64,000 nt of DNA from an uncultured Eubacterium sp. (GTDB taxonomy: Bacteria > Bacillota > Clostridia > Peptostreptococcales > Anaerovoracaceae): positions 1-64,000 of the forward strand of contig CAMNSS010000011.1 in the NCBI GenBank assembly GCA_946555345.1, given 5' to 3'. The notes beneath the pieces were generated by a model, which was given only the letters and a program-made list of their open reading frames with translations, made no database searches and was not told the origin of the DNA. Both the position numbers and the translations under genes were made by a program. Positions 27,255 through 62,507 of the stretch are shown piece by piece. Position 1 is the first letter of the stretch. Each line of letters begins with the position of its first letter.

Positions 27255-27330
<76 letters not shown>

Positions 27331-27468: not shown

Positions 27469-28665
27469 TTATCGCTTGATTTTTTTTAACCGCTTTGCTG
27501 TGCGGACCGGGTGGAATTTGTTTGCAGGTTCGAGGCTGATCCCAGGCAGTTTATTGATCGCTTCAATTTGCACATCCTGTTTTATGAGCGCATAATGCCT
27601 GGCTGTGACTTCGACGGATTTATGCCCCATGAGCTTGGATGCCACTTCCAGGGGGACTCCCGCCCGGCAAAGTTCCGTGCAGAACGTAGCCCTGTATGCG
27701 TGGGGATTTTTTTCAGGGATTTCATTTCTTTTATAGAACCGGGTAAGTGACCGTCGGACATTCCCATATTCCAGGAGCTTCCCTGTAGAAGATGTGAATA
27801 CAAAATCCGTCTTATATTTATTCCGCTGTGCTTCCGCAGTGAATCTTTCCCTGTGAGCGTTAAATGCTTTCTGGAGTTCCGGGTGGATGGGGATTTTGCG
27901 GAACGACTTATGTTTTGGCGGTGACAGCTCGCCTTGGTAGTACTGCCTGTTCACATGGACAAACCCGTTGGATATGTCCATGTATTTTATCCCCAGGCAC
28001 TCGGAAATCCGCAGCCCTGCATAATTCATCAGGAACATCATAAAACGCAGCCTGTGGGAAGATGCGTTGGCGAGGATGGAGGTTATTTCCCCGGGTTCCC
28101 ATACTACGATGCCCGTGTGCCGTTTATTGTCTGGCTTGTCCGGCAGGGTGACGGCGGAAAGCACGTTATTTGAATATTCGTTTAATGAAAGCCATTTATA
28201 GAATGCGGACATCCATTTGCTGATTGCTTTGAGCGATTGGCGGGATACGTCAAGGGAAATGTAAAAGTCCTGTATCGTGCGGGCTTTTACGTCACCGAGC
28301 GGGATGCTTGCGAGCAATGAATCTTTGACGTGAACGCGGTAGCTTTGCTCATAACGCCGCTTTGTGCCATGTGCATAACTGCTTTTCATCAGAATGCCAT
28401 ATGTGTATTCTTCTGCATAATCGCCGAATGCTCTGCGCTGCTGTGAAGATTGCAGATGTTCTTTTTCATATTTTATGCGTATCTGCTCTTCTTGGTATTT
28501 TTTGAATTTCTGTTCTGCATTCCCTTTGGAAGCGCCTACAAACTGTTTCTTGACAGGTACTTTTTTCCCATCCTTCCATTCATGCCCTATGGTTCTGGTG
28601 ATCCGGTAATAAGCGTATTCTTTTCCGCCTTTGGCAGTGACGGTGGTATTCTTTTTTGCCGCCAT
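27469..28665 (-). CDS. int: Prophage tyrosine recombinase (integrase)
   Basis: This 398-residue enzyme catalyses site-specific integration and excision. It has an N-terminal arm-binding region, a core-binding SAM-like domain (about residues 90-185) and a C-terminal catalytic domain. The catalytic residues visible are the Arg in NYAGLRISECLG, the HAYR (HxxR) box, the LMGHK His and the nucleophile Tyr in RHYALI. ATG at 28665 follows GGGAGGAGG. A longer in-frame start at 28725 has no such site. The 3' end points at the tRNA cluster, as expected for a gene beside its attachment site. Confidence 0.93.
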   Translation of the reverse strand: MAAKKNTTVTAKGGKEYAYYRITRTIGHEWKDGKKVPVKKQFVGASKGNAEQKFKKYQEEQIRIKYEKEHLQSSQQRRAFGDYAEEYTYGILMKSSYAHGTKRRYEQSYRVHVKDSLLASIPLGDVKARTIQDFYISLDVSRQSLKAISKWMSAFYKWLSLNEYSNNVLSAVTLPDKPDNKRHTGIVVWEPGEITSILANASSHRLRFMMFLMNYAGLRISECLGIKYMDISNGFVHVNRQYYQGELSPPKHKSFRKIPIHPELQKAFNAHRERFTAEAQRNKYKTDFVFTSSTGKLLEYGNVRRSLTRFYKRNEIPEKNPHAYRATFCTELCRAGVPLEVASKLMGHKSVEVTARHYALIKQDVQIEAINKLPGISLEPANKFHPVRTAKRLKKIKR

Positions 28666-28775
28666 ACAGTCCTCCTCCCTGGTTTTGGGCATAAAAATAC
28701 CCGCTTGAAAAATCACGGGCTGCATGGTAAACTTAATTTGTCAAAACAGAGAACCGCATGACCCGTGGTTCGAAA

Positions 28776-37178: not shown

Positions 37179-37811
37179 ATGGCTGAATCGAAACGGAAAA
37201 CAGGATATGGGATGGCGGAAGGACTCAGCTTATTGGAACTGGCAAAAAAACACGGAGGCAGGCGGCCAACGCCAAAGCAGCAGAGGTTCTGTGATGAATA
37301 TTTGATTGATTTCAATGGAACCCAGGCGGCAATCAGGGCAGGATATTCGAAAAAGTCTGCGCGGGCGATTGCATCAGAAACCTTGACAAAACCATACATC
37401 CAGGAATATATACAATTCCGGCTGGAACAGAAGGAAAAAGACCTGATTGCAGACCAGGATGAAGTGATGAAATATTTGACTGCCGTCATGCGGCGGGAGA
37501 AGATGGAATATGTGGTCGTCACGGTCATGGAGGAGCAGTCGTGTTACAAGCCGGATGAGAAGGGCATGATGAGGAAGGTCTCCGTGAAGAAGGAAACCCC
37601 GCAGGTTGTCGAAATACCGGCGATGCTGCGGGATGCAAACAAAGCGGCGGAACTGCTTGGCAAAGCGTATGGGGCATATACGGACAAACAGAAACTTGCC
37701 ATCGACGAAAAGCGCCTGGAACTGGAAGAGAAGAAAACGATGGCATCCGTCCATTATGATAAGGACATACGGGTGACAATCACAGGCTATGAAAAGGAGT
37801 GGAGCGAATGA
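37179..37811 (+). CDS. terS: Terminase small subunit
   Basis: The 210-residue protein is of the Terminase_2 type. LTPKQQRFCDEYLID-like sequence (PTPKQQRFCDEYLIDFNGTQAAIRAGYSKKSARAIASETL, about residues 29-68) is the DNA-binding HTH that selects the packaging site. A helical oligomerisation part and a charged C-terminus follow, the latter contacting the large subunit. It starts the late region after a 66-nt gap. Its stop overlaps the large subunit start (ATGA). Confidence 0.93.
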   Translation: MAESKRKTGYGMAEGLSLLELAKKHGGRRPTPKQQRFCDEYLIDFNGTQAAIRAGYSKKSARAIASETLTKPYIQEYIQFRLEQKEKDLIADQDEVMKYLTAVMRREKMEYVVVTVMEEQSCYKPDEKGMMRKVSVKKETPQVVEIPAMLRDANKAAELLGKAYGAYTDKQKLAIDEKRLELEEKKTMASVHYDKDIRVTITGYEKEWSE

Positions 37812-39227: not shown

Positions 39228-41108
39228 ATGGATAACGGCATGAGGAAAACGAGGACGGATACGGAAGCTGCGATAACCAACGAGGATGTGCAGGGGTTTG
39301 AAACATTGCTCAGGGAGTATCAGCAAGGAAAGCAAGTCATTGACCAGAAAGCCACGGCAAACTGGGAGTGGTGGAGGATGCGGCACTGGGAACAGATGGG
39401 ATCTAAAGATGCTGGCGATGAGGAGAATGCAACGTCCGCATGGCTGTTCAATTCCATCATCAATAAGCACGCCGATATCATGGATAATTTTCCGAAACCG
39501 AACGTGTTGCCAAGGGAGCAGCAGGACGAAGCGGAAGCAAAAGCCTTGTCGCAAATCCTCCCCGTCATCTCTGAACGCAATGATTATGAGCAGGTGTACA
39601 GCGATAAGTCGCTGGATCTTCTCGTCGATGGGGGATGCGTCACGAGCGTGCTTTGGGATAACACGCTGAATAACGGTTTGGGTGATATTTCCATAAAACG
39701 GGTTGATGTGCATAATATCTTTTGGCAGCCGGGCATAGAGGACATACAGGAATCGGAAGCGGTCTTTGTATCGAGGCTGGTGGACAATGATAAGCTGGCC
39801 GCAATGTACCCGCAGATGAAAGGAAAGGAAGGCGGGGGCAGGACGACGCAGGAATACGTCAACCGGGACGAGCAGGCAGATGAACAGAAGAAGAGCGAAG
39901 TGTGGGATATGTACTATAAGACCACCGTCCAGGAAGAAGTGGCGTCCGATCCCAGGACGGGGGATGCCGTGAAGCGGCCGAGAACTGTGCTGCATTTTGT
40001 AAAGTTCTGCAATGGAGAGCTGCTTTATGCATCGGAAAATGATCCCGGCATGGAAGGTGGCTGGTATCAGCATGGGCAGTACCCGTTTGTGGTGGCTTCC
40101 CTTTTTCAGATCAAGGACAGCCCTTGGGGATTCGGTTACGTGGACGTTATGAAATCCCCGCAAGCCCAGATCGACAAGCTGGATCAGATGATCTTAAAAA
40201 ATGCGTCTATGGTAGGAACGAAACGGTGGGCTGTGCGGGAAAATGCGGAAATAAATGCAGATGATTTCGCAGATTGGGGCAAGGTCATGGTGAGGGTTTC
40301 CGGTTCTGCGCCGCTCGACGACATCATGAAGGAAATTTCTGCAAGCCCTATTCCTGCGTTTGTGGTGCAACATAAGGCGAACATGATCGAACAGCTCAAG
40401 GAAACCTCCGGCAACCGTGATGTTTCGCAGGGAAGCGCGCAGGGCGGGGTCACGGCGGCAACGGCGATCGCTGCATTGCAGGAAGCGGGCAGCAAGCTGT
40501 CAAGGAGCGTCAACAGGACGCTTTACCGGGCAAAGCGGCAGGAAGATTACCTTCAAGTGGAATTAATCAGGCAGTTTTACACAGAACCCCGTTCGTTTCG
40601 GATAGACAACGAAGACGGGTCGTGGGATTTCATAGAATATGGCGGCGATGCCGCAATGCGGCGCAGGGAGGCGCGCGGAGCTGTGTTTGACATTCAGATC
40701 ACGGCGGAAAAACAGTCTCCGTTCAGCAGGGCAGCCCAGAATGAGACGATGAAGGAAATGTATGGGCTTGGACTGTTTGCCCCGAATAATGCGGAACCAG
40801 CCCTTGTGTGCATAGAGGGAATGGAGTTCGAGGGCAAGGAAAAAATCAAGCAGCAGATTCAGCAGAATAGTGTTTTCATGCAACAGTTCCAAGCGATGCA
40901 GCAAGCGATCATGTCGGCGGAAACGCAGTATCCTGGGCTTGGCATTGCAGCGATGGCAGGGCTTGCGCCGATGCCGGCGCCAGATAGCGGGCGGGCAATG
41001 CAGGCGGAGGAAGGAACGCCGGAGGAACGCGCGGCTAAGACGGAAACCGACAGCACAAGGACGGCAAAGGCCAGGGTAAGCGCAGCAAAACAGGCAAGGA
41101 TCGGATAG
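39228..41108 (+). CDS. Portal protein (P22-like)
   Basis: The 626-residue protein occupies the portal position directly after terminase and has the length and composition of P22/T7-type portals. The N-terminal region contains WEWWRMRHWEQMG and the wing. The GYVDVMKSPQAQIDKLDQMILKNA helix (near residue 305) is the stem-crown signature of the family. A Gln-rich segment (IKQQIQQNSVFMQQFQAMQQA) and a disordered acidic/basic tail end it. It forms the dodecameric DNA entry ring. The class supports a podovirus-like virion. Confidence 0.85.
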   Translation: MDNGMRKTRTDTEAAITNEDVQGFETLLREYQQGKQVIDQKATANWEWWRMRHWEQMGSKDAGDEENATSAWLFNSIINKHADIMDNFPKPNVLPREQQDEAEAKALSQILPVISERNDYEQVYSDKSLDLLVDGGCVTSVLWDNTLNNGLGDISIKRVDVHNIFWQPGIEDIQESEAVFVSRLVDNDKLAAMYPQMKGKEGGGRTTQEYVNRDEQADEQKKSEVWDMYYKTTVQEEVASDPRTGDAVKRPRTVLHFVKFCNGELLYASENDPGMEGGWYQHGQYPFVVASLFQIKDSPWGFGYVDVMKSPQAQIDKLDQMILKNASMVGTKRWAVRENAEINADDFADWGKVMVRVSGSAPLDDIMKEISASPIPAFVVQHKANMIEQLKETSGNRDVSQGSAQGGVTAATAIAALQEAGSKLSRSVNRTLYRAKRQEDYLQVELIRQFYTEPRSFRIDNEDGSWDFIEYGGDAAMRRREARGAVFDIQITAEKQSPFSRAAQNETMKEMYGLGLFAPNNAEPALVCIEGMEFEGKEKIKQQIQQNSVFMQQFQAMQQAIMSAETQYPGLGIAAMAGLAPMPAPDSGRAMQAEEGTPEERAAKTETDSTRTAKARVSAAKQARIG

Positions 41109-41118
41109 GGGGGGCAGC

Positions 41119-41442
41119 ATGACAAGGGTAGTATGTTCAATAGCAGGATATGGCGCTCCGCTTTCCTTTGAATGTGCAGGCCATGCGGGCAGCAGGGCGG
41201 TATGCGCGGAATGTTCGGCTTTATGCGCAATGCTCGTCAGGTATGCGGATGAAAAGGGTCATGCCCCGGCGGTGTGCGAAGATGGGCATATAAAGATTGA
41301 AATAAGCCGTTCCAGCACGGAAATAAATGCGGTGTTTCATGCTGCGATGCTTGAATTTAAGGCGCTTGCGCAGCGGTTTGGGGAACATATAGAAGTTTGC
41401 TGGTTACGTGGGGGGAGAAATGATTTTTGGCATTCCCTATAA
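41119..41442 (+). CDS. Prp-like cysteine protease (candidate prohead protease)
   Basis: The 107-residue protein resembles Prp, the bacterial cysteine protease that removes the N-terminal extension of ribosomal protein L27 and, in staphylococcal phages, also trims capsid and scaffold proteins. FECAGHAGSRAVCAECSALC places the catalytic pair at His22 and Cys29. The loop between them is shorter than in host Prp. The C-terminal helix AMLEFKALAQRFGEHIEV matches the family end. It lies between portal and scaffold, where prohead proteases are found, and both downstream head proteins carry Prp-like N-terminal motifs. Confidence 0.75.
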   Translation: MTRVVCSIAGYGAPLSFECAGHAGSRAVCAECSALCAMLVRYADEKGHAPAVCEDGHIKIEISRSSTEINAVFHAAMLEFKALAQRFGEHIEVCWLRGGRNDFWHSL

Positions 41443-41492
41443 TTTAAACAGAAAATACGGGGTCGTGTCCCAAACCACAGGAAGGAAGCAAA

Positions 41493-42395
41493 ATGAACAA
41501 AGAGTATTTAAAAAGGCTGCATACATTCATGTTTGATGAGGGTGCGGCAGATGCCAGTTCCCCCGGAGAAGGGGATTCCGGTTCGGATGCAGAGCCAGCC
41601 GTCGTTTACGGGAAAGCCGAGGCAGGGGAAGCGGAAGGTCAGATCGGCGCTGACACAGAAGGGGAAGGCTTGCAGGACGAGCCAGACCCAGAGGCAGAGT
41701 TTGAGGAACTTATCAAAGGGCAATATGCAGACCAGTTCAACAGCCGTGTCCGGGGAATCATGCAGCAAAGGTTTAAAAATGCGGAAAATTACCAGGACAA
41801 GATCGCAAGCTATGACAAGGCGGTATCCCCGCTTTACATGATTTATGGTTTAAAGCCCGGAGATGTCCAGGGACTCGAAGATGCGATTAAAAATGACGAG
41901 GGTTTGTATGCGGCACGGGCTGACGAAGCCGGGATTACCGCAAAGCAGTACAAAGAAAACCTGCGTCTCAGGATGGAAGCCGCGCAGGGGCGCAGCATGA
42001 GGGAGGAAATGCAGCGCCAGGCGGAACGGCAGCGGACATTTAACAGGTGGGAGCAAGAAGCGCGGGAGCTACAGGAAACGTTTCCGGCATTTGACTTCAC
42101 GATGGAGCTGGAGAATCCTGATTTTGCACAGAGGCTTAATACCGGGTATTCCGTGCGGGATGCGTTTATGGCAACGCATATGAGCGAGATATTAAACGGG
42201 ATGAAAGGCGAGGTAAAAACGGATACGGCAAGGCAAATGGTGGATAATTTCCGTTTGCGGCAGTCGAGGCCTGCGGAAAACGCAGCATCGTATGCCCCGG
42301 CAGTAGTACGCAAGGCAGACCCGTCGAAATGGACAGATGAAGATTTTGACGAGGTGGAAAGGCGGGTTGAGGCGGGAGAAATCATCCGGCTGTAA
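41493..42395 (+). CDS. Capsid scaffolding protein
   Basis: The 300-residue protein directly precedes the capsid gene. It has an acidic, low-complexity N-terminal part (residues 15-80), a helical, Gln/Glu/Arg-rich middle and a short charged C-terminus, the usual scaffold composition. Its first residues (MNKEYLKRLHTFMF) closely match those of the capsid protein (MSKDYLKKLHPYMF), suggesting a shared N-terminal processing signal for the Prp-like protease. A GGAAGGAAG site precedes the ATG. Confidence 0.8.
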   Translation: MNKEYLKRLHTFMFDEGAADASSPGEGDSGSDAEPAVVYGKAEAGEAEGQIGADTEGEGLQDEPDPEAEFEELIKGQYADQFNSRVRGIMQQRFKNAENYQDKIASYDKAVSPLYMIYGLKPGDVQGLEDAIKNDEGLYAARADEAGITAKQYKENLRLRMEAAQGRSMREEMQRQAERQRTFNRWEQEARELQETFPAFDFTMELENPDFAQRLNTGYSVRDAFMATHMSEILNGMKGEVKTDTARQMVDNFRLRQSRPAENAASYAPAVVRKADPSKWTDEDFDEVERRVEAGEIIRL

Positions 42396-42434
42396 CATGG
42401 CTTTCACCCGTCATATGAGAAGGGAGAAAGAGAA

Positions 42435-43421
42435 ATGTCAAAAGATTACCTAAAGAAACTGCATCCATATATGTTTTTTGCGGAATTGAATACCAATACG
42501 ACGATGCAGGCGGGGGAAGGAAAAGACCTGTCTCCTGAAATGAAAACATATTATGATAGGATGCTCGTAAGATATGCAGAGCCGGAGCTGGTGCATGACC
42601 AGTTCGGGCAGAAGAGGCCGATTCCTTTACGGGCAGGAAAGACCATCGAGTTTAGAAGGTTTCCGGCGCTGGCCAAGCAGATGACGCCGCTTACGGAAGG
42701 CGTTACGCCTGACGGGCAGAGCTTGTCTGCGGTATCCATGACGGCCACGCTGGCGCAGTATGGCGGTTACATCGTATCTTCTGATATGCTGGAGCTGACC
42801 GCCATCGATAACGTGTTGCAGGAAACCACGAAGATCCTGGGGTCGCAGGCAGGAAGGACTTCCGACGGAATTACCAGGGAGGTATTGGCCGGCGGCACGA
42901 ACGTAAGGTACGCTGGAGGGAAAAGCTCCAGGGAGAACCTTGCGGATACGGATGTGCTTACCGTTAAGGACATCAAGAAGGCTGTCAGGGATTTAAAGGC
43001 AAAAAATGCGCCGAGAATTAACGGCTATTATATTGCGATCGTGCATCCCGATACTGTTTATGACCTGTGGGAGGATGCAGAATGGATTGAAGCGTCCAAA
43101 TATGCTGGATCCGAACAGATTTTTAAAGGCGAGGTTGGAAAGCTCTACGGCGTGCGGTTCGTGGAATCCACGGAAGCCAAGATCTGGGATGGCGAGGTTT
43201 ACGGTACGCTCGTGTTGGGCGCAAATGCGTTTGGCATAACGACCCTTGCAGGGAGGGGGATCGAGCATATCGTGAAGCAGAAAGGGTCGGCAGGCACGGG
43301 CGATCCGCTGAACCAGAGATCGTCGGTAGGGTGGAAGCTGACTAAGACGGCAAGGATTCTCGTCGATGAGTACATGGTGAGGATTGAGCATAAGGTTACG
43401 CTGCCATCCGCCGCAAACTAA
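42435..43421 (+). CDS. Major capsid protein, N4-gp56 family
   Basis: The 328-residue protein has the N4-gp56-type HK97-fold capsid pattern. It contains an N-terminal segment ending MFFAELNTNTT, the KTYYDRMLVRYAEPELVHDQFGQ helix, GKTIEFRRF, LTEGVTPDGQSLS, and later YYIAIVHPDTVYDLWED and GEVGKLYGVRFVESTEA, all typical of the family. Hundreds of copies form the icosahedral shell. The N-terminus resembles a Prp cleavage site with the predicted cut after Phe15, so the mature protein may start at Ala16. Confidence 0.92.
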   Translation: MSKDYLKKLHPYMFFAELNTNTTMQAGEGKDLSPEMKTYYDRMLVRYAEPELVHDQFGQKRPIPLRAGKTIEFRRFPALAKQMTPLTEGVTPDGQSLSAVSMTATLAQYGGYIVSSDMLELTAIDNVLQETTKILGSQAGRTSDGITREVLAGGTNVRYAGGKSSRENLADTDVLTVKDIKKAVRDLKAKNAPRINGYYIAIVHPDTVYDLWEDAEWIEASKYAGSEQIFKGEVGKLYGVRFVESTEAKIWDGEVYGTLVLGANAFGITTLAGRGIEHIVKQKGSAGTGDPLNQRSSVGWKLTKTARILVDEYMVRIEHKVTLPSAAN

Positions 43422-43435
43422 GGAAGGAGACAGGA

Positions 43436-43846
43436 ATGGCAAGCAAAAAGAATGAACAGGCAGGGATACCGGCAGAAGAGAGGGAAATGCTCAAAGCCGA
43501 ATTAAAAGCAGAAATCGAAGCGGAAGCAAGGGCTGAAATCGAAGCGGAGACAAGGGCGGAAATGAAAGCGCGGCTTGAAGCGGAAGCTTCTGCGCCGTCT
43601 TCGGGGGAGACCGGGGAACAGAAAAAGCGGGCGGAGGAAAAAATCCCCTATATGCTGCCGCTCATCGAAGGAGAGCCGGAAGAAGTCAACGTAACGGTTA
43701 ATGGAAGGACCATCCAAATCCTCCGGGGCGAGCAGGTGAAGATTCCGAGGATGTTTGCGGAGGTTTTGGACAACCAGGCCATGCAGATGAAGTATCTGCG
43801 GAAATACCAGCAAGAAAAGAAAGAGCAGGTAACGATAGTCGAATGA
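43436..43846 (+). CDS. Head-associated protein with helical repeats
   Basis: The 136-residue protein follows the capsid gene by 14 nt. Residues about 15-50 are a run of near-repeats of the type AEIEAEARAEIEAETRAE, forming one long charged helix. The C-terminal half has a compact domain (VNVTVNGRTIQILRGEQVKIPRMFAEVLDNQ). Proteins of this shape regularly follow N4-gp56 capsids in Clostridia prophages. A role as a head decoration or completion protein is inferred from position only. Confidence 0.55.
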   Translation: MASKKNEQAGIPAEEREMLKAELKAEIEAEARAEIEAETRAEMKARLEAEASAPSSGETGEQKKRAEEKIPYMLPLIEGEPEEVNVTVNGRTIQILRGEQVKIPRMFAEVLDNQAMQMKYLRKYQQEKKEQVTIVE

Positions 43847-54533: not shown

Positions 54534-57500
54534 ATGGCAGGGAAAAGGAACATAGGCAGATTAAGGAAGGCAGTGCGGAAGGAAAATACAGCCGAAGCAA
54601 TCAAAAATGCGGGGCAGGCAGCAGTACGCGCAGGGAAAAGCGCAGTCGTGGCTAATACGGTAAAGCAAGGATCTTCTGCTGTACGGCAGGTTGCACAAAA
54701 CGAAGGGAAAAAATATGCAGGAACAGGGCGTTCTGGCAAACAGAGCATCCCTGAAGACAGTGCAAACAGAGTGCGGAATCCCAGGCTGGATGCTCTCTTG
54801 GAGAAATATGAGAAAACAAAGAAGGATCAAGGTTTTCTGTCCGCAATGGAAAAGTATAGGAACAAGGATTTCCTTTTTATGAGAAACGGAGAGAATGGTT
54901 CAGAACGGAATAAGCCCATCAGTATAGCGGAAATCCGGGAAACTACTAAAAAAATGCGGGAGGAGATGGCAAAGGCACAGACAAGTACGGATTCGGAAGA
55001 AGGCAGGCTCAGGAATCTGACGGAGGGAAACCTGCGCCAAATTGCAGGAAGCCATGTCAAAACGCTGGGTGCGATTGTCGAAGGCAGCGAAACGAACATC
55101 GTCCCTGCTTCGGCTGGGAGTATCGCTTCTCCCCTTGTCGGGTTAAAGTATAGCCAGGTGGAAGAGTCGAGGAAAAATGCCCAGAAGGAAAGCGGCAAGG
55201 CAATGTCCGAATTTGGGTCAAGCCAGATTGACAAAGGCGCAGAAAAAATCAAGAAAGGCAAGGAAGGACTAAACTGGGCGGAAGCGTTTTTGGCAGATCT
55301 TTATGGTGAAGCGCTTGGGCTTGGCGCTGATGCGCTTGCAGGTCCGCTTTCAGGGGCAGCGATGTTTTCGCGTTCATTTGGCTCTGCGTATGATAGGGCT
55401 GAAAAGGAAGGCGCAACCCCTTTGCAGGCGGGGATTTATGGCATATCAATGGGTGGGGTGGATGCAGGACTGGGGAAATTGACTAAAGTGGCAAAACCCT
55501 TGCGGAAGCTTTATGGCAAAGACGCTGGCGATGATGTCATTGATACGCTTTTGAACAAAGTGTCAGGGAAGATGGTATCGCAGAAGGGAAAGGACATCGT
55601 TTGGCATGGGGGCAAGGCGGGGGTTTCAGCGCTTACCGAAGCGCTTGAGGAAATGGTTGCGGAGGGACTTGAGCCTTCGATCGCAAACCAGATTTATGCA
55701 GAGGCGGCGGGAATCCCGCATGAGACAAGCGCAAAGGACATCCTTTATGCAGGGCTTCTTGGCAGCGCACTGGGAGGAAGCCACAGCGGCGTCACGCAGG
55801 CCTGGGGATATTCCCAGGGACGGAAAGTGCGGGACGTGTTCGGCGAGGAAGGAACAAAAGAGCTTGCAAAAAAAGCGGCCGCAGCGGATGAAGACTCTGG
55901 CACGGGGCTTGTTGCAACAGCGATGGAAAAGATGATCGAAACTGGGCAGGGGATCGCCGCCGGGCAGGCCAAGGAATTGTACAAGGCGGCATACCAGCAG
56001 GAGGTGAAAGACCTTGAGCGGGCGGAGCTTGCAAGAAGATCATCTGAACGCATTATTCGCGGTGAAAACCTTGTGCCGCCAACCATAACAGACAGGGAGA
56101 CGGGAAAGGAAATACTTAACGTGAATACCGCCCGCCTTTTTGATGAAAAAAAGATGCAGGCGGCCGAAGCGGTGAAAGCGATGCAGCTGCCGGGAGCAAA
56201 GGCAGGACAGATTGTGGAATCCGTGGCGCGGATTGAGACGGGCGTTGCGGGCGTAGATGACGTGAATCTTTTTACGGTGCCAAATCAGGAGGCGAGGGAG
56301 GCTTATACCGCTGTGACGGGAAAAACGCTTCCAGGGACGAATAAGGGAACGAGGGAGGCGTTATATGAAACAATCGCTGTTAACCGCGTCAATTCGGCAA
56401 GAATGGAAACGGAAAACCATATTGACCGTATGCGCGGGGTGATCGAGCAGAACATGACGCAGGATTATGAATCCGCCGGGCAGGAAACATTTGCGCAGGT
56501 GTTTGGCAAAGTGGACGTAAGGGACGTGCCGCAGGTGGAGGATGCAGCGGTCACCTTTGATGGCTTTTACCGTGCGGGAAGGAACGGCATTGATTACGTG
56601 GATGTAGCATCAATAGAAAATCCGGCATATCAGAACGTGTCTCCAGGGGTAAAGCAGGCGGCATGGGATGCCGGGCGGCAGGATGCATTCATTGCTTCCG
56701 ACACGGCGAAAGGACTTCAATTAAAGCTTGGGCAGTCCCTTCGGGAAAACCGTGTACAAACGGGGACACAAGGCACACAGGGCAGGGTTACGGCGGAACT
56801 GCCCCCGGAAGGCAAGGCATTGTTAAAGGCAAGCGACCAAGGAATGTTCCGCGCACTGGCAAGGACTTTTGGCCTCGACATCCACATTGTGGAGGAGGAA
56901 GGGGTCGACGGGGTTTACCGTGACGGGGAAGCCTGGCTGTCCGTCGATGCTGACAGAGGTCTTTCTTCTGTGCTTGCACATGAGATTACTCGTCAGATGG
57001 AAGTTTACGCACCGGAGGAATACGATAAACTGAAAGATCTTGTGCAGGCGGATTGGGCTAAGAGGGACGACATGGACGAAACCGCAGGCGAAAAGAAAAG
57101 CCAGTATGCGGAAAGTGGCGTGGAGCAGCCCCATAAGGGGGATTTTGATGATATCATCGCTAATTCCGTATATGAGATGATTCAGGATAAAGCGTTTGCT
57201 AATGAGATGTGCAGGCATCACAGGGATATTGCACAGCCTGTCTTAGATGCTGTTAAGACCGTCCAAAAAAAGCTCCGCATAGTGCTGGCAGAAGGAGAAA
57301 GATTCACGCAGAAGCAGAATGCGGCGCTCTTTTCAAATCTTGATATTCTAAAAGATTCTGAAAGCATATGGGCTGACGGGCTTATGCGGACGGCACAGAA
57401 TTGGGATGCGGCAGGGCAGGCCGGTGTTTTCGGCAATGTGAAAAGATACCCTGCGAATATGAGCAAGGACAGCCCAATCAAAAGACAGATACAAGAAAAT

Positions 57501-60500
57501 TTGGAAAAAATCAATGCCATCGGCGTTGTTGCAGACATAAAGAGCGATAGATTTAAAGGCATGACAGATGAACAAATTATTGATGAAGTTATGCCGGAGT
57601 TTAGAAAAAGAGGAGCAGGCGTTGACAGAACGGGGCTTGGATTTATCAGTTTGAAGGAAACGTTCGTTAATAACAGCCTGAATTATTTAGGCGGAGAGGC
57701 AGAGTATGCCGCATTTGCTGCAATTCCAAACGTTTTAAAAAAAGGTATGGAGATTAGGGATGCAGGATATGAAGCCAGCGGGCATAATGCTGCACTTGCT
57801 GCACCAGTGGTGATAGATGGTAAAACGGGGATTATCGGGGCCGCAGTAAAAGAAACAAAAGAAAATGAATATAAGGTCCACAGGATTCTTATGCCGGATG
57901 GCACGGAATATGTTTTTCATGATAGTATATTCGATCCCGATGGAAATGACAGGGAACAGTTTTCCCTCCCAGCTCCCGACGCCGTGAACGACTACATCAA
58001 TGCACATGAAACGGAATTCGTGGAAGCGCCGCCGGTGAGGGATTATGAGCGGGAAGGCGCAGAGCTGAGGGAGCAGTCCATAGGGGAGCTGCAGGAGCAG
58101 GTGAAGAAGCTGCGGCAGGGTAAGCGCTTAACGCACGGCAAGGTTTTTGACAAGGCTTCCGTGGAAGAGGAACTGAACAGCCTGGTGCGTACGCTCATGA
58201 GCCACAGCGAAGGGACGGCGAACAAAACAGACCACAGGCTGGTGAAGATGCTTGCCGAAAACGCTTCCTCCGTTTATACGGCGATGAAGGACGGGGACAT
58301 TGCGGGGGCGGCGAATACCGCATGGTATGCGGCACGGGATGCAGTGGAAAACCTGCGGCTCGTGGATGATTGGGCTTTCCGTGAATACAAGGAACTGCGG
58401 GACGTGATGCGGACGACCGCTGTCACGGTATCGGAAGCAGGCAGGGGCGATATTCCGGACTTTGCGGATTTCAGGCGCAAGAACATGGGGCGGCTGCGGC
58501 TCGTCGACCGGGGAGGGATTCCCGTGGACACGCTTTACATGGAGCTTTGTGAGGCGTACCCGGAATTATTTTCAAAAGACGTTACCCATTCGGCAAGCCA
58601 GCTCGTGGCAATGGCAGACATAAGGGCGCAGCTAGAGCCTTATGACATCATGCTCTCTGCGGAGGAGACAGGACAACTTGTGAAGGAAGCCGCACACGAT
58701 CTCCTGGACATAGCTGCCAGGGGAAAGCCGTGGAAGTCATGGGCGGACAGGAAAACGGAATGCTATGACGGGAAACTGAAAGCCATGAAAGTGCGGCAGG
58801 CAGAGGCATTGCGGAACGTGAAAATCAGGGAACGCATGGGGGCGGTGCGCATGGTGGACAGGCAGAACCTAAAGCATCGGGAATGCAAGCAGAAGGACAG
58901 GAAGGAGCATATCAGGCAGTTTGGGAGCATACAGGAAAATTATGAGTGGCTTTCGGGAAGGCTCTTGAATCCTGCGGACGACAAGCACATCCCGGAGGGG
59001 TTCAGGACAACTGTGGCACGTCTTTTGCAGCAGACCGGCCTCCGGACGGAATGGTCGAAGAGCCTTGAAAAAAAGTACGGGAAAGCACAGAAAACGCTGC
59101 AGATGGGCGAGCTAAAGCGGCAGTTTGCCGAAATTGCCAAAGAGGACGGCAGCGGGATATTTGAGTACGACAGGCAAATATTTGAGCTGATGGACGTTCT
59201 TTCCGAAAAACTGGAAGGGAAGCCCATTGAACAGGCGACAAATGAAGAACTGGCATCCATTGACACGCTGCTAAAGGCAATCGCAAGCAATGTGAGGAAT
59301 TATAACCGTGCATTCACTGATGGGATCAAGGAGGAAATTTCAGGGCTTGCGGGCAGGTCGATTGACGCTGCAAAGAAACATATTGAAAAACATGGAAACC
59401 GCAGTGAACGTTCCGGCGCGATGGGAGGGATGGACATATTCCCGAATGAATCGATGGTCACGCCGAGGGACTTCTTTGAGCAGATCGGCGGGATGGAGGA
59501 GATCTTTCTTGCCATGAGGAAGGGCATGGACAAGCACGTTGACAACCTCACGAAAGCGAGGGGTTTTTTCGATGAAATTTTCACGCCATACCATAAAGGA
59601 ACAGCGTTAAGGAAACAGGCAAAGCCGGGGAGCAGGATAGAGGGATGGCGGGATGGCTCGCAGATGCACAGAATCGAACTTGCATCCGGGCGGAGCATCA
59701 GCCTAAGCCCAGCGCAGGTGATGTCGTTTTACTGCCTTTCCAAAAGGGAACAGGCGCAGGGTCATATCCTGGGTTCGGGCGTGGTGGCAAGCCGGGTGGA
59801 CAATGCATCAAAATTAAAGCAGTTCTTCGGCGCAAAAGTGCAAACCGCGGGTTCTGCCGTGATGGTAAGCCCTGCTGATGTGGAGAAAATCATCGCCCTT
59901 CTGACGCCGGAACAGCGGCAAATGGCGGACAGGCTGCAAGGCTACCTGGACAGCGAGTGCGCAGGGTGGGGCAACGAAGCATCCATGAGGCTTTACGGGT
60001 ACAGGAAGTTCACGGAAAAGGACTGCTTCCCGCTCAAGTCCGCTGACCAGTACCTTGACAGCAGTTTTGAGGGAAGGCGGGCCGCAGAACGGATAAAGGA
60101 TTTTGGGTTTACGAAGGGGACTGCCGTAAATGCGAATAACCCGGTTGTAATCGATGACATATTCTGCGTGGTTTCCGATCACATAAATAAAATGAGCCTG
60201 TATAATGCCTTTGCCGCCCCGATATCTGATTTCACAAGGGTATACAATCATAAAACAAGGGATGGCGAGGGGCATATGACGGGGTCTGTCAAATCATCCA
60301 TTGAAGACGCTTACGGAAGGAAGGCGGTAAGCTACATCGACAACTTTTTAGCTGATGTCAATGGTATTGCGCAGATGAGGACGGAAGATATGATGCGGTT
60401 TGCCAGTAAGCCGCTGGCAAACAACAAGAAGGCAACCATCGGCGGAAACATTTGGGCCGCTTCACAGCAGCCTGCGGCAATCATGCGGGCGTTCATGCTG

Positions 60501-62507
60501 ATCAGCCCGCGCTATTTTGCCAATGGGAAAATAAACACTGCAAAGAACCTCCAGGACATGAAGGCGCATTGCCAGATCGCCCGCTGGAAGTCATGGGGAC
60601 ACAACCAGGCGGATATGGCAAGGGACATTGGCGACATTATGATGAACAATGCGTGGATGCGCCTTGATGCGTTGGCGATGGAGCTTTACGGGAAACTGGA
60701 TGACCTTACCTGGCCGGCCATTTGGGCGGCAGTCAGGAGTGAGACGGAAGCCAAGCATCCAGATGTCGCAGTTGATTCGGAAGAATTTTATGCGATTTGC
60801 AATGACAGGGCTTCTGAGATTTTCGACAAAACGCAGGCCGTCGATTCAGTTTTTCACCGCTCGCAGGCAATGCGGAACACGGATACCATGAACGGGGCAA
60901 TGGCCTCTTTTATGGCAGAACCGATGCGCACTTTTAATATGGTGCGTATGGAATTTGTCCAGGCAAGGGAGCTGTGGAAAGATGGCGAGGCGGGGAAAGC
61001 TGCGCAGAAAGCCAGCAGGGCGATGACGGTATTCACGATGAATGTTGCGTTATGCGCTGTCGCTGCTGCCATTGTGGATGCGCTCCGCAGCAGGACTGCG
61101 GGCGATGATGGGAAAGAAGACGGCTGTCTTGAAAATTTCATCGAAAACTTCGAGGACAGCATGAACCCGCTGAATATGATTCCGCTGGCAGAGAAATTTT
61201 CGGGGGTTACCGGCGGGTGGGATTCACAGAACATGGAGCTGGAAGGGTATGCATCTCTCGTACAGTCGGCAATCGGGCTTGTCAAGGCGGACGACCCGGC
61301 GAAAGCCTTTCGGGAGCTTGCGGAAAGCATGGGGCTGGTGTTCGGCATTCCTGTAAAGAACGTCCTGCGGGATGCGAAAGCGGTCTTCAATGCGTTTGGG
61401 CTCAATGCCTTTGCCGCAGAAGCAGGCTGCGGGGAAACGCTTTCCAGGGAGAAAGAACCGCTCATGGATAAATGGGCTGCTTTGTTTGGCGGGAAGGCTT
61501 CCGGAAGGGACGGGGAAACTGGCGGGGAAAACAGGGATGAATCAGATTCGGAATACTATGGGATTTATGCTGGCAGCAAAGAAAGCTTGTGGGATAAAAT
61601 CACTGACAAGACTTATTCAGAACGGAAACAGGAGGACAGGGAAAAACGGGTTTCGGATATTGAAAAGAACGTCAAAGGGCTTTCCGGCGGTGAGCGGGAT
61701 GAGGCCATATGGAAGGCGGTCACGAAAAATTACATCCGCTATGTGGAGGATGGCGAAATGGATGTCTTGCGGGAGATGCGATGGACGCTCGATAGATTAG
61801 GCGGGAACGTGGACAAGTTTGACGAGAGCATCCTTAGCAAAGTGAAAACAGCGTACAAGAAGAACATCGGGGGCGACCTTGGGATGCTGGCCATGTATGC
61901 TGAATACCTTCTTGGGCAGGGATTTACGGAGGAGAAGATCAGTAGCGGGATCATTGCCAACAGCGAGACGGCGAAGAAGTTCCAGAAACAGGTGTGCTTA
62001 AATGACTGTAATGCCGCCGCAGATGCGTTGGCGGATTTGATTTCTGCCGGGATTATGGAAAACGACATCTATGCGTTGTATGATAACAGGACCAAGGCTA
62101 TTGATGCTTCGGATTATTCCAGCGGAACGTTCCTTGCGCCCGTGTCGGGCAGGATTTCGTCGGGGTACGGATACCGGGATGCGCCGTCGGCCAGGGCTTC
62201 TTCTTTGCGTCAGGCAATCGATATTGCCGCACCTGCTGGAGCGGATGTCGTTGCTGCGGATGGCGGTCAGGTGACGAAGGCAGGCTGGAGCAGCGGGTAT
62301 GGCTGGACGGTGGAAATCCTCCACGGCAACGGTCGTTACACCAAGTACAGCCATTTGCAGGGTTACGCCGTGCAGAAGGGTGATGTTGTCAGACGAGGGC
62401 AGCTCATCGGCTATGTGGGAAGCACCGGGGTTTCAATGGAGCCGCATCTCGATTTCAAGGTCAAGGAAGGCGGGCAGTGGGTGAATCCGATGGATTATTT
62501 GCAGTAA
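54534..62507 (+). CDS. Giant polyvalent virion protein with degenerate M23 domain
   Basis: This 2657-residue protein is the largest gene. Order of parts: helical N-terminus; small-residue-rich hydrophobic region (about 258-316); zincin-like helix HEITR at 816-820 (third ligand Arg instead of His); a domain like those in phage polyvalent proteins (LPD3/PBECR type, about 970-1145); long helical stretches; an LPD38-like part (about 1965-2290) with a possible transmembrane helix near 2163; and a C-terminal M23 lysostaphin-like fold (about 2533-2657). In M23 the metal ligands read Arg2559, Asp2563, His2607, His2638, Asp2640, so two canonical histidines are lost. It is probably ejected with the DNA, as in other short-tailed phages. 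Domain names are from pattern memory. Confidence 0.75.
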   Translation: MAGKRNIGRLRKAVRKENTAEAIKNAGQAAVRAGKSAVVANTVKQGSSAVRQVAQNEGKKYAGTGRSGKQSIPEDSANRVRNPRLDALLEKYEKTKKDQGFLSAMEKYRNKDFLFMRNGENGSERNKPISIAEIRETTKKMREEMAKAQTSTDSEEGRLRNLTEGNLRQIAGSHVKTLGAIVEGSETNIVPASAGSIASPLVGLKYSQVEESRKNAQKESGKAMSEFGSSQIDKGAEKIKKGKEGLNWAEAFLADLYGEALGLGADALAGPLSGAAMFSRSFGSAYDRAEKEGATPLQAGIYGISMGGVDAGLGKLTKVAKPLRKLYGKDAGDDVIDTLLNKVSGKMVSQKGKDIVWHGGKAGVSALTEALEEMVAEGLEPSIANQIYAEAAGIPHETSAKDILYAGLLGSALGGSHSGVTQAWGYSQGRKVRDVFGEEGTKELAKKAAAADEDSGTGLVATAMEKMIETGQGIAAGQAKELYKAAYQQEVKDLERAELARRSSERIIRGENLVPPTITDRETGKEILNVNTARLFDEKKMQAAEAVKAMQLPGAKAGQIVESVARIETGVAGVDDVNLFTVPNQEAREAYTAVTGKTLPGTNKGTREALYETIAVNRVNSARMETENHIDRMRGVIEQNMTQDYESAGQETFAQVFGKVDVRDVPQVEDAAVTFDGFYRAGRNGIDYVDVASIENPAYQNVSPGVKQAAWDAGRQDAFIASDTAKGLQLKLGQSLRENRVQTGTQGTQGRVTAELPPEGKALLKASDQGMFRALARTFGLDIHIVEEEGVDGVYRDGEAWLSVDADRGLSSVLAHEITRQMEVYAPEEYDKLKDLVQADWAKRDDMDETAGEKKSQYAESGVEQPHKGDFDDIIANSVYEMIQDKAFANEMCRHHRDIAQPVLDAVKTVQKKLRIVLAEGERFTQKQNAALFSNLDILKDSESIWADGLMRTAQNWDAAGQAGVFGNVKRYPANMSKDSPIKRQIQENLEKINAIGVVADIKSDRFKGMTDEQIIDEVMPEFRKRGAGVDRTGLGFISLKETFVNNSLNYLGGEAEYAAFAAIPNVLKKGMEIRDAGYEASGHNAALAAPVVIDGKTGIIGAAVKETKENEYKVHRILMPDGTEYVFHDSIFDPDGNDREQFSLPAPDAVNDYINAHETEFVEAPPVRDYEREGAELREQSIGELQEQVKKLRQGKRLTHGKVFDKASVEEELNSLVRTLMSHSEGTANKTDHRLVKMLAENASSVYTAMKDGDIAGAANTAWYAARDAVENLRLVDDWAFREYKELRDVMRTTAVTVSEAGRGDIPDFADFRRKNMGRLRLVDRGGIPVDTLYMELCEAYPELFSKDVTHSASQLVAMADIRAQLEPYDIMLSAEETGQLVKEAAHDLLDIAARGKPWKSWADRKTECYDGKLKAMKVRQAEALRNVKIRERMGAVRMVDRQNLKHRECKQKDRKEHIRQFGSIQENYEWLSGRLLNPADDKHIPEGFRTTVARLLQQTGLRTEWSKSLEKKYGKAQKTLQMGELKRQFAEIAKEDGSGIFEYDRQIFELMDVLSEKLEGKPIEQATNEELASIDTLLKAIASNVRNYNRAFTDGIKEEISGLAGRSIDAAKKHIEKHGNRSERSGAMGGMDIFPNESMVTPRDFFEQIGGMEEIFLAMRKGMDKHVDNLTKARGFFDEIFTPYHKGTALRKQAKPGSRIEGWRDGSQMHRIELASGRSISLSPAQVMSFYCLSKREQAQGHILGSGVVASRVDNASKLKQFFGAKVQTAGSAVMVSPADVEKIIALLTPEQRQMADRLQGYLDSECAGWGNEASMRLYGYRKFTEKDCFPLKSADQYLDSSFEGRRAAERIKDFGFTKGTAVNANNPVVIDDIFCVVSDHINKMSLYNAFAAPISDFTRVYNHKTRDGEGHMTGSVKSSIEDAYGRKAVSYIDNFLADVNGIAQMRTEDMMRFASKPLANNKKATIGGNIWAASQQPAAIMRAFMLISPRYFANGKINTAKNLQDMKAHCQIARWKSWGHNQADMARDIGDIMMNNAWMRLDALAMELYGKLDDLTWPAIWAAVRSETEAKHPDVAVDSEEFYAICNDRASEIFDKTQAVDSVFHRSQAMRNTDTMNGAMASFMAEPMRTFNMVRMEFVQARELWKDGEAGKAAQKASRAMTVFTMNVALCAVAAAIVDALRSRTAGDDGKEDGCLENFIENFEDSMNPLNMIPLAEKFSGVTGGWDSQNMELEGYASLVQSAIGLVKADDPAKAFRELAESMGLVFGIPVKNVLRDAKAVFNAFGLNAFAAEAGCGETLSREKEPLMDKWAALFGGKASGRDGETGGENRDESDSEYYGIYAGSKESLWDKITDKTYSERKQEDREKRVSDIEKNVKGLSGGERDEAIWKAVTKNYIRYVEDGEMDVLREMRWTLDRLGGNVDKFDESILSKVKTAYKKNIGGDLGMLAMYAEYLLGQGFTEEKISSGIIANSETAKKFQKQVCLNDCNAAADALADLISAGIMENDIYALYDNRTKAIDASDYSSGTFLAPVSGRISSGYGYRDAPSARASSLRQAIDIAAPAGADVVAADGGQVTKAGWSSGYGWTVEILHGNGRYTKYSHLQGYAVQKGDVVRRGQLIGYVGSTGVSMEPHLDFKVKEGGQWVNPMDYLQ

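Follow-up and report, generated by a model that had tools for sequence, protein, structure and literature searches.

A 64,000-nucleotide stretch of DNA from an uncultured Eubacterium sp. (GCA_946555345.1, contig CAMNSS010000011.1, positions 1-64,000; the window, in what follows, is this whole 64-kb stretch) carries a prophage whose head genes include, between portal and scaffold, a gene for a short cysteine protease of the Prp family. Our analysis strongly suggests that this phage-owned Prp is the head-maturation protease of the prophage and that it co-evolves with two substrates, the scaffold and the major capsid protein, which begin with closely matched peptides (here called tags). The genes and tags concerned are as follows.

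41119..41442 (+): Prp-family cysteine protease, 107 aa; predicted dyad His22/Cys29, with Ser33 and Gly56 conserved
41493..42395 (+): scaffold-like protein of 300 aa, in PHROG 13908 (a group of unknown function); scaffold role assigned from position and composition
41493..41534 (+): scaffold N-terminal tag MNKEYLKRLHTFMF; predicted cut after Phe14, before DEG
42435..43421 (+): major capsid protein, 328 aa; PHROG 1357, PF13252/PF25209
42435..42479 (+): capsid N-terminal tag MSKDYLKKLHPYMFF; predicted cut between Phe14 and Phe15, alternatively between Phe15 and Ala16

Earlier work has treated Prp as an enzyme of ribosome maturation, borrowed by phages, and as a drug target. The Prp family and the precedent of a host enzyme were already known, as was the fact that databases contain homologous phage genes; no paper on a phage-owned Prp as head-maturation protease, or on matched tags, was found in the open-access literature.

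The gene, its dyad and the matched starts of scaffold and capsid had been described in a sequence-only reading of this DNA, and all three observations were confirmed. The protein scored 29.4 bits with the PF04327 profile (29 bits in the genome search), above the curated cut-off of 27. Across an alignment of 41 phage Prps, five of them chosen by their His-Cys pattern, His22 and Cys29 were the only invariant columns and aligned with the dyads of solved Prps; Ser33, Gly56 and a Pro at column 88 were each present in at least 90% of the sequences. Gly21, Ser33 and Gly56 of the window protein match the substrate-contact and loop residues Gly21, Ser38 and Gly65 of Staphylococcus aureus Prp, as given in excerpts of its description, the pairing of Gly56 with Gly65 resting on the alignment. 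The structural comparison that had been proposed as a check was carried out and returned a confidently predicted Prp fold that matched a Prp structure, the extended C-terminal end being poorly modelled. Among relatives, the dyad was kept in 110 of 113 Prp open reading frames (ORFs), and two of the three exceptions are cut by contig ends.

Comparison of the scaffold start MNKEYLKRLHTFMF with the capsid start MSKDYLKKLHPYMF showed 9 of 14 positions to be identical, with a score of 56. None of the 1652 remaining pairs of ORF starts scored as high (maximum 35), nor did any of 2000 shuffles (maximum 37), and apart from these two, none of the window's 58 ORF starts proved tag-like at the threshold used. 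Three of the seven identical residues other than Met are specified by different codons in the two genes. The likeness of the tags is not a matter of chance, and the proposal of two putative substrates bearing a shared tag holds. The tag is anchored by a Phe, and the residue after it is mostly small or acidic, a pattern also seen where Prp is known to cut. The tags of the closest relatives, LHTQMF-DVELNT (L084) and LHTHMF-DAALNT (L085), are in register with LHPYMF-FAELNT of the window, and the window scaffold reads MF-DEG at the same place. The scaffold would be cut between Phe14 and Asp15. For the capsid, a mature start at or near residue 16 had been expected; since the in-register alignment and the scaffold MF-DEG favour Phe14/Phe15, and the FFA string favours Phe15/Ala16, a cut between Phe14 and Phe15 is probably at least as likely, and a start at residue 16 is kept as the alternative rather than as the best guess.

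The host does not appear to supply an enzyme of this kind. In its genome (96% complete), the only PF04327 matches were the two copies of the prophage, and no Prp was found by this search in the chromosome outside the phage. Of the control genomes, that of Lactococcus lactis has a Prp, and that of E. coli returned no match. The host ribosomal protein L27 starts with MASKKG directly after the ribosome-binding site, with no in-frame start between it and the upstream stop codon, and has no N-terminal extension. Within the host family, a PF04327 match (E 0.001) was obtained in 7 of 119 genomes and was absent from the other 112; six of the seven (G000, G079, G101, G109, G137 and G146) have it inside phage head modules, and the seventh (G176) has a 25-position fragment. 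One of these genomes, G137 (locus L087), is Gallibacter intestinalis DSM 108706, a species of Eubacteriales. L27 was short in 27 of 28 host-family loci, the remaining one (L245), with an in-frame stop in the search output, being left unread. Since the Prp gene lies beside the genes of tagged shell proteins, in a host with neither a Prp match nor the usual L27 target, the enzyme appears to be the phage's own shell-maturation tool and not a borrowed one. The earlier idea of a dedicated Prp is thus borne out as regards a phage-borne gene in such a host; it does not stand as a special acquisition of this phage, since head modules of this kind carry Prp as a rule and several cultured siphophages have it too.

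The precedent is that of S. aureus, whose host Prp cuts L27 and both head proteins of phage 80alpha after Phe; capsid and scaffold are cut between Phe and Ala with the removal of 13-14 residues, and the scaffold tag is required, its cutting not (excerpts of PMC5744158 and PMC9405229, on which our statements on this system rest). The window phage is like 80alpha in the Phe-bearing, matched N-terminal tags of scaffold and capsid. It differs in having the enzyme in the phage, in a host without Prp match and with an unextended L27, in a tag of the form LHxxMF instead of LKxNLQxF, in a spacing of 7 instead of 12 residues between the catalytic His and Cys, and in the absence of a counterpart of Asp31. 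In the mechanism that we propose, scaffold and capsid would be made with a common hydrophobic N-terminal peptide ending in Phe (LHxxMF), which would occupy the cleft of the enzyme in the way that the L27 peptide occupies that of S. aureus Prp. With Cys29 and His22 as the catalytic pair, the scaffold would be cut behind Phe14 and the capsid behind either Phe14 or Phe15, so that both proteins would be shortened by 14-15 residues at about the time of procapsid assembly. While still uncut, the tag may in addition be required for assembly, as in 80alpha.

Relatives of the head module were collected with the capsid as bait (the best 80 of 152 relatives in viral_contigs and 77 genome loci); direct scans of viral_contigs and genome_contigs had returned no close relatives of the window Prp protein. 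With a first profile, a Prp gene was present in 105 of 110 modules with portal, scaffold and capsid, and in 95 of the 110 it lay strictly between portal and scaffold, a conserved position that marks Prp as the rule in this head module and not as unique to the window phage. With better profiles, 112 modules with a portal and a readable capsid start were retained, the window included and 14 loci without the capsid core motif and loci with no portal in view left out; 106 had a Prp-like ORF and six had none. A Phe tag on capsid or scaffold was found in all 106 of the former and in none of the latter (L130, L132, L133, L136, L138 and L141), which have plain starts, for example MANHVNATTD for the capsid and MEEEKSVLQP for the scaffold. 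The tag rule behind this count is permissive and was also passed by 188 of 853 other ORF starts; a narrower motif was found on 88 of 103 capsids, on 61 of 116 scaffolds, whose starts are often misplaced, and on 34 of the 853 other starts. On a capsid tree of 70 rows, in which L136 was folded into a near-twin, the six modules correspond to three losses of Prp, each matching a loss of the tags. The idea that divergent tags occur only in Prp-bearing phages, the rest relying on LQLFA and the host enzyme, was dropped, as long-loop Prps were found in the apparent gaps. Prp together with IQHF tags was also found in a module of this lineage from a bin titled Candidatus Treponema caballi (L106), which may be contamination; spirochaetes are said to have Prp yet no long L27.

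Covariation of the tags was evaluated in 47 phages, dereplicated at 85% capsid identity from the 94 of 112 modules with both tags called. The tag rule was rewritten for this purpose without use of the partner protein, some calls (for instance the scaffold of L144) remaining doubtful. At positions P6-P2, scaffold and capsid tags were identical at 3.34 of 5 positions within a phage and at 1.53 between phages, and the similarity of a phage's own two tags was 16.4, as against 5.33 +/- 0.80 after shuffling, with none of 20000 shuffles reaching it. Compared with the capsid tag of the nearest relative, the phage's own matched better in 33 cases, equally in 5 and worse in 9 (p 2.7e-4). Scaffold and capsid tag distances gave a partial Mantel correlation of 0.527 with both protein bodies controlled, and Prp distance followed tag distance with a partial Mantel of 0.257 (0 of 1000 permutations in both cases). 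An earlier, cruder tag rule, which placed wrong sites in several phages, had returned 11.9 for own pairs and 3.9 for shuffled ones (0 of 20000), with partial Mantel values of 0.256 for scaffold and capsid (reached by 3 of 1000 permutations) and 0.229 for Prp and tag (0 of 1000). The tags of scaffold and capsid covary within a phage beyond relatedness.

The shortened loop between the catalytic residues had been suggested to mark altered specificity. The His-to-Cys spacing, 7 residues in the window Prp against 12 in S. aureus, was 12 in 63 of the 110 phage Prps, 7 in 37 and of other length in 10; it is also 7 in Thermotoga maritima Prp TM1457 (PDB 1s12), which, unlike the window Prp, is cellular and whose substrate is not known. 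The short loop does go with tags other than LQLFA, as Gln at P3 of the tag occurred in 0 of 21 short-loop phages and in 23 of 26 long-loop ones. The association is mostly one of shared descent: the tree holds four loop changes and two tag changes, with the same direction in 1.4 of 4 independent pairs on average, and the nearest relatives L084 and L085 combine a 13-residue spacing with the same LHTxMF kind of tag. Strong as the raw association is, loop length is not claimed as the cause of tag choice, because of this descent, the few independent changes on the tree and the long-loop relatives.

Several points weigh against a phage Prp that matures the head. Cleavage itself, its site and its timing are what we infer by analogy, and cleavage may be dispensable, since 80alpha remains viable when mutation leaves its capsid or scaffold uncut (excerpts of PMC5744158 and PMC9405229). 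The association of enzyme and tag amounts to about three independent losses, two of them on well supported branches (sign test p 0.5), that of L141 lying on a long branch of unsure placement; the raw Fisher p of 4e-10 ignores descent, and with only three independent events the co-loss is not significant alone. No scaffold tag was called in 12 of the 106 Prp modules, in some through wrong start codons, and in L248, a phage with Prp, a tail protein alone bears the tag and neither head protein does (roles read from position). In favour of Prp, no other protease of head-maturation type was found among 16 phage proteins scanned, Prp and the whole terminase-to-capsid run included, the one further peptidase domain in the set being of M23 type; these 16 are only part of the prophage genes. 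The shared peptide could instead be an assembly or recruitment tag that pairs scaffold with capsid, or delivers both to a common partner, Prp trimming or binding it incidentally. The scaffold N-terminus of 80alpha, essential for assembly although its cleavage is not (same excerpts), and the close match of the two tags inside each phage are in line with this. It is nevertheless unlikely, as the tags are missing in the six modules without Prp (three events), tail proteins are tagged in other Prp phages, in L248 with neither head protein bearing a tag, Prp distance follows tag distance beyond relatedness, and the Phe anchor with its mostly small or acidic neighbour looks like a Prp cut.

The window Prp might also be decaying or inactive, having lost loop, Asp and conserved Pro, with the head proteins left uncut or cut otherwise. 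Its profile score is near the Pfam cut-off, Gly88 replaces the near-invariant Pro, and the C-terminus is about 13 residues longer than in its sisters (41398-41439; after IEV: CWLRGGRNDFWHSL). Asp31, near the active site and essential in S. aureus Prp (excerpts of PMC5744158 and PMC9405229), has no counterpart, Arg26/Ala27 standing there. The nonsynonymous distance (dN) to L085 (0.450) exceeds that between L084 and L085 (0.356). Decay has moreover a clear precedent in L140, one of the 106 modules counted above, where a Prp-like ORF between portal and scaffold (L140:4819-5124) lacks both dyad residues, the capsid tag KLNIQLFA equals the start of host L27 (MLKLNIQLFAH) and the host keeps a Prp next to L27; it is plausible that this phage, like 80alpha, relies on the enzyme of its host, possibly after a switch from its own. 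Against decay, the window protein retains the dyad, Ser33, Gly21 and Gly56 and a confident Prp fold, its 7-residue spacing is shared with TM1457 and the 37 phage Prps counted above, its dN to L084 (0.352) is not above that between the two sister phages, and no host Prp match exists to stand in. The Asp31 position also varies in other short-loop phage Prps and in TM1457, so this residue is not taken as defining for short-loop Prps. No clear sign of relaxed selection was seen, synonymous distance (dS) being high and imprecise, and we regard decay as quite improbable. That the enzyme acts on the ribosome or another protein of the host and not on the head is very improbable indeed: known cellular Prps do cut L27, according to the excerpts, and FlhB has been proposed as a target, but here host L27 has no extension to cut, the gene lies within the head operon, between portal and scaffold as in most relatives, and the tags are borne by virion proteins.

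Prp and tags were also observed in other phages. In a host-family phage with Prp (L247), KLQLFA occurs on scaffold, capsid and a tail protein, and in L249, again with Prp, NLQLF occurs on a head protein, these roles being read from position; in L261 a tail protein is tagged besides scaffold and capsid. The putative tail proteins with Prp-type N-terminal tags are the following.

L247:1839-2630 (-)
L248:2154-2651 (-)
L261:8210-8761 (+)

In L250:5963-9560 (-), the large terminase subunit (TerL), portal and Prp follow in one run with no recognisable scaffold or capsid behind; this may be a satellite, part of a split module or a module whose head genes have diverged. Among cultured phages, 19 records matched the Prp of L247, and seven were read; the other 12 are duplicates or close kin of these, six faecal records without annotation and a record from Staphylococcus (H53). 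The seven are Enterococcus phiFL3A (gp45, with a DUF464 note in the record), Brochothrix BL3 (gp6), Lactococcus TP712 and PLgT-1, Oenococcus Krappator27, Dorea DO134P1 and Latilactobacillus TMW 1.1447 P1. These siphophage-type phages resemble the window phage in having a Prp-like gene after the portal region and Phe tags on both scaffold and capsid (7 of 7, or about six cases, since TP712 and PLgT-1 are close kin); they differ in their head type (Portal_SPP1 note in phiFL3A) and in LQxF tags. Their records label the Prp as peptidase, hypothetical protein, unknown, gp6 or, in three, ribosomal protein, and that of DO134P1 marks no gene at the match. N-terminal data on phage BL3 were sought in the open-access literature, and none were found. 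In Shewanella phage ORF22, discussed beside Prps in an excerpt of PMC10846135, no Prp motif was seen.

A split form of the head module was observed in at least 8 Clostridia genomes, at two chromosomal places among housekeeping genes. One part holds portal and Prp, with TerL and the small terminase subunit (TerS) where the contig reaches, and adjoins a cysteine desulfurase in six loci; the other holds scaffold, capsid, PHROG 12105, an internal virion protein and LysM.

Scaffold-capsid part: L151, L152, L148, L116, L158 and others
TerS-TerL-portal-Prp part: L284, L286-L290, L293 and L294, some cut by contig ends

The portals of eight split modules are 60-86% identical with order kept; a portal at a level of at least 62% was present in 10 of 16 such genomes, and at any level in 15 of 16, some in ordinary prophages. 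Between two species, dN/dS was 0.05 for Prp, 0.04 for capsid and 0.24 for scaffold, with dS above 1. The split modules look like a domesticated gene transfer agent that has kept Prp and tags, perhaps kin of FpGTA of Faecalibacterium prausnitzii (PMC12946183). By its description, FpGTA is similar in its podovirus-like TerS, TerL, portal, scaffold and capsid, in gut Clostridia and in two operons. It differs in being domesticated, and the main text of that paper contains none of the terms Prp, protease and peptidase.

The hosts of the relatives were examined for L27, which was matched in 51 of 60 genomes and in that of the window, with 49 readable starts, 15 short and 34 extended. Prp adjoined L27 in none of the 15 short-L27 hosts and in 32 of the 34 extended ones, the other two being cut by contig ends. 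Fourteen of the short-L27 hosts harbour a phage of this lineage that encodes a Prp. In the fifteenth (G052), the phage (L138) lacks both Prp and tags, and the genome gave no match to PF04327. Of the 15, 14 were searched for PF04327, and the matches obtained in them lie, by coordinates, in phage head modules. Adjoining the short L27 of the window's host, ribosomal protein L21 was found to be 168 aa long (L003:933-1439). This exceeds the usual length of L21 by a C-terminal extension.

An unrooted Prp tree was built from 114 rows and 115 columns, with chromosomal rows from these Clostridia only. The 23 chromosomal, L27-linked Prps are accounted for by one change; a supported branch joins 22 of them, and the one that unites all 23 is unsupported. 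They lie beside siphophage Prps, and phage Prps span the rest of the tree. This placement, the phages with enzyme and tag in hosts without Prp or L27 extension, and the split modules that keep both under purifying selection lead us to suggest, tentatively and as something possible rather than probable, that Prp is at root a viral particle-maturation protease and that the Firmicutes ribosomal enzyme, with the L27 extension, may be a captured branch. If phages commonly own Prp, there would be a class of head-maturation proteases of about 100 residues acting on an interchangeable tag of two or three virion proteins, a class missed by annotation as peptidase, ribosomal protein or unknown. The specificity of Prp could then be studied from the variation of enzyme and tag that nature already provides. 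In hosts with neither Prp nor an extended L27, the viral function could be examined apart from the effect on the ribosome through which S. aureus depends on Prp.

Finally, the surroundings of the three genes in the window are those of a prophage inserted at a tRNA gene.

37179..37811 (+): small terminase subunit, PF03592
37799..39217 (+): large terminase subunit
39228..41108 (+): portal protein of P22-like type, encoded immediately upstream of prp
43436..43846 (+): small protein of PHROG 15239 (function unknown), encoded after the capsid gene
27469..28725 (-): prophage integrase, PF00589
27289..27327: 39-bp core of the left attachment site, within the 3' part of tRNA-Met (27255-27330)

The prophage is present as two identical tandem copies of 40,160 bp each, the first extending from 27289 to 67448, past the window end, and the second from 67449 to 107608 of the contig (C11), with three copies of the 39-bp core at tRNA-Met across them; this arrangement either reflects a tandem lysogen or arose when circular phage DNA was assembled. 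A late-region protein of 2657 residues (54534-62507) ends in an M23 peptidase domain and is perhaps a wall-piercing virion protein.

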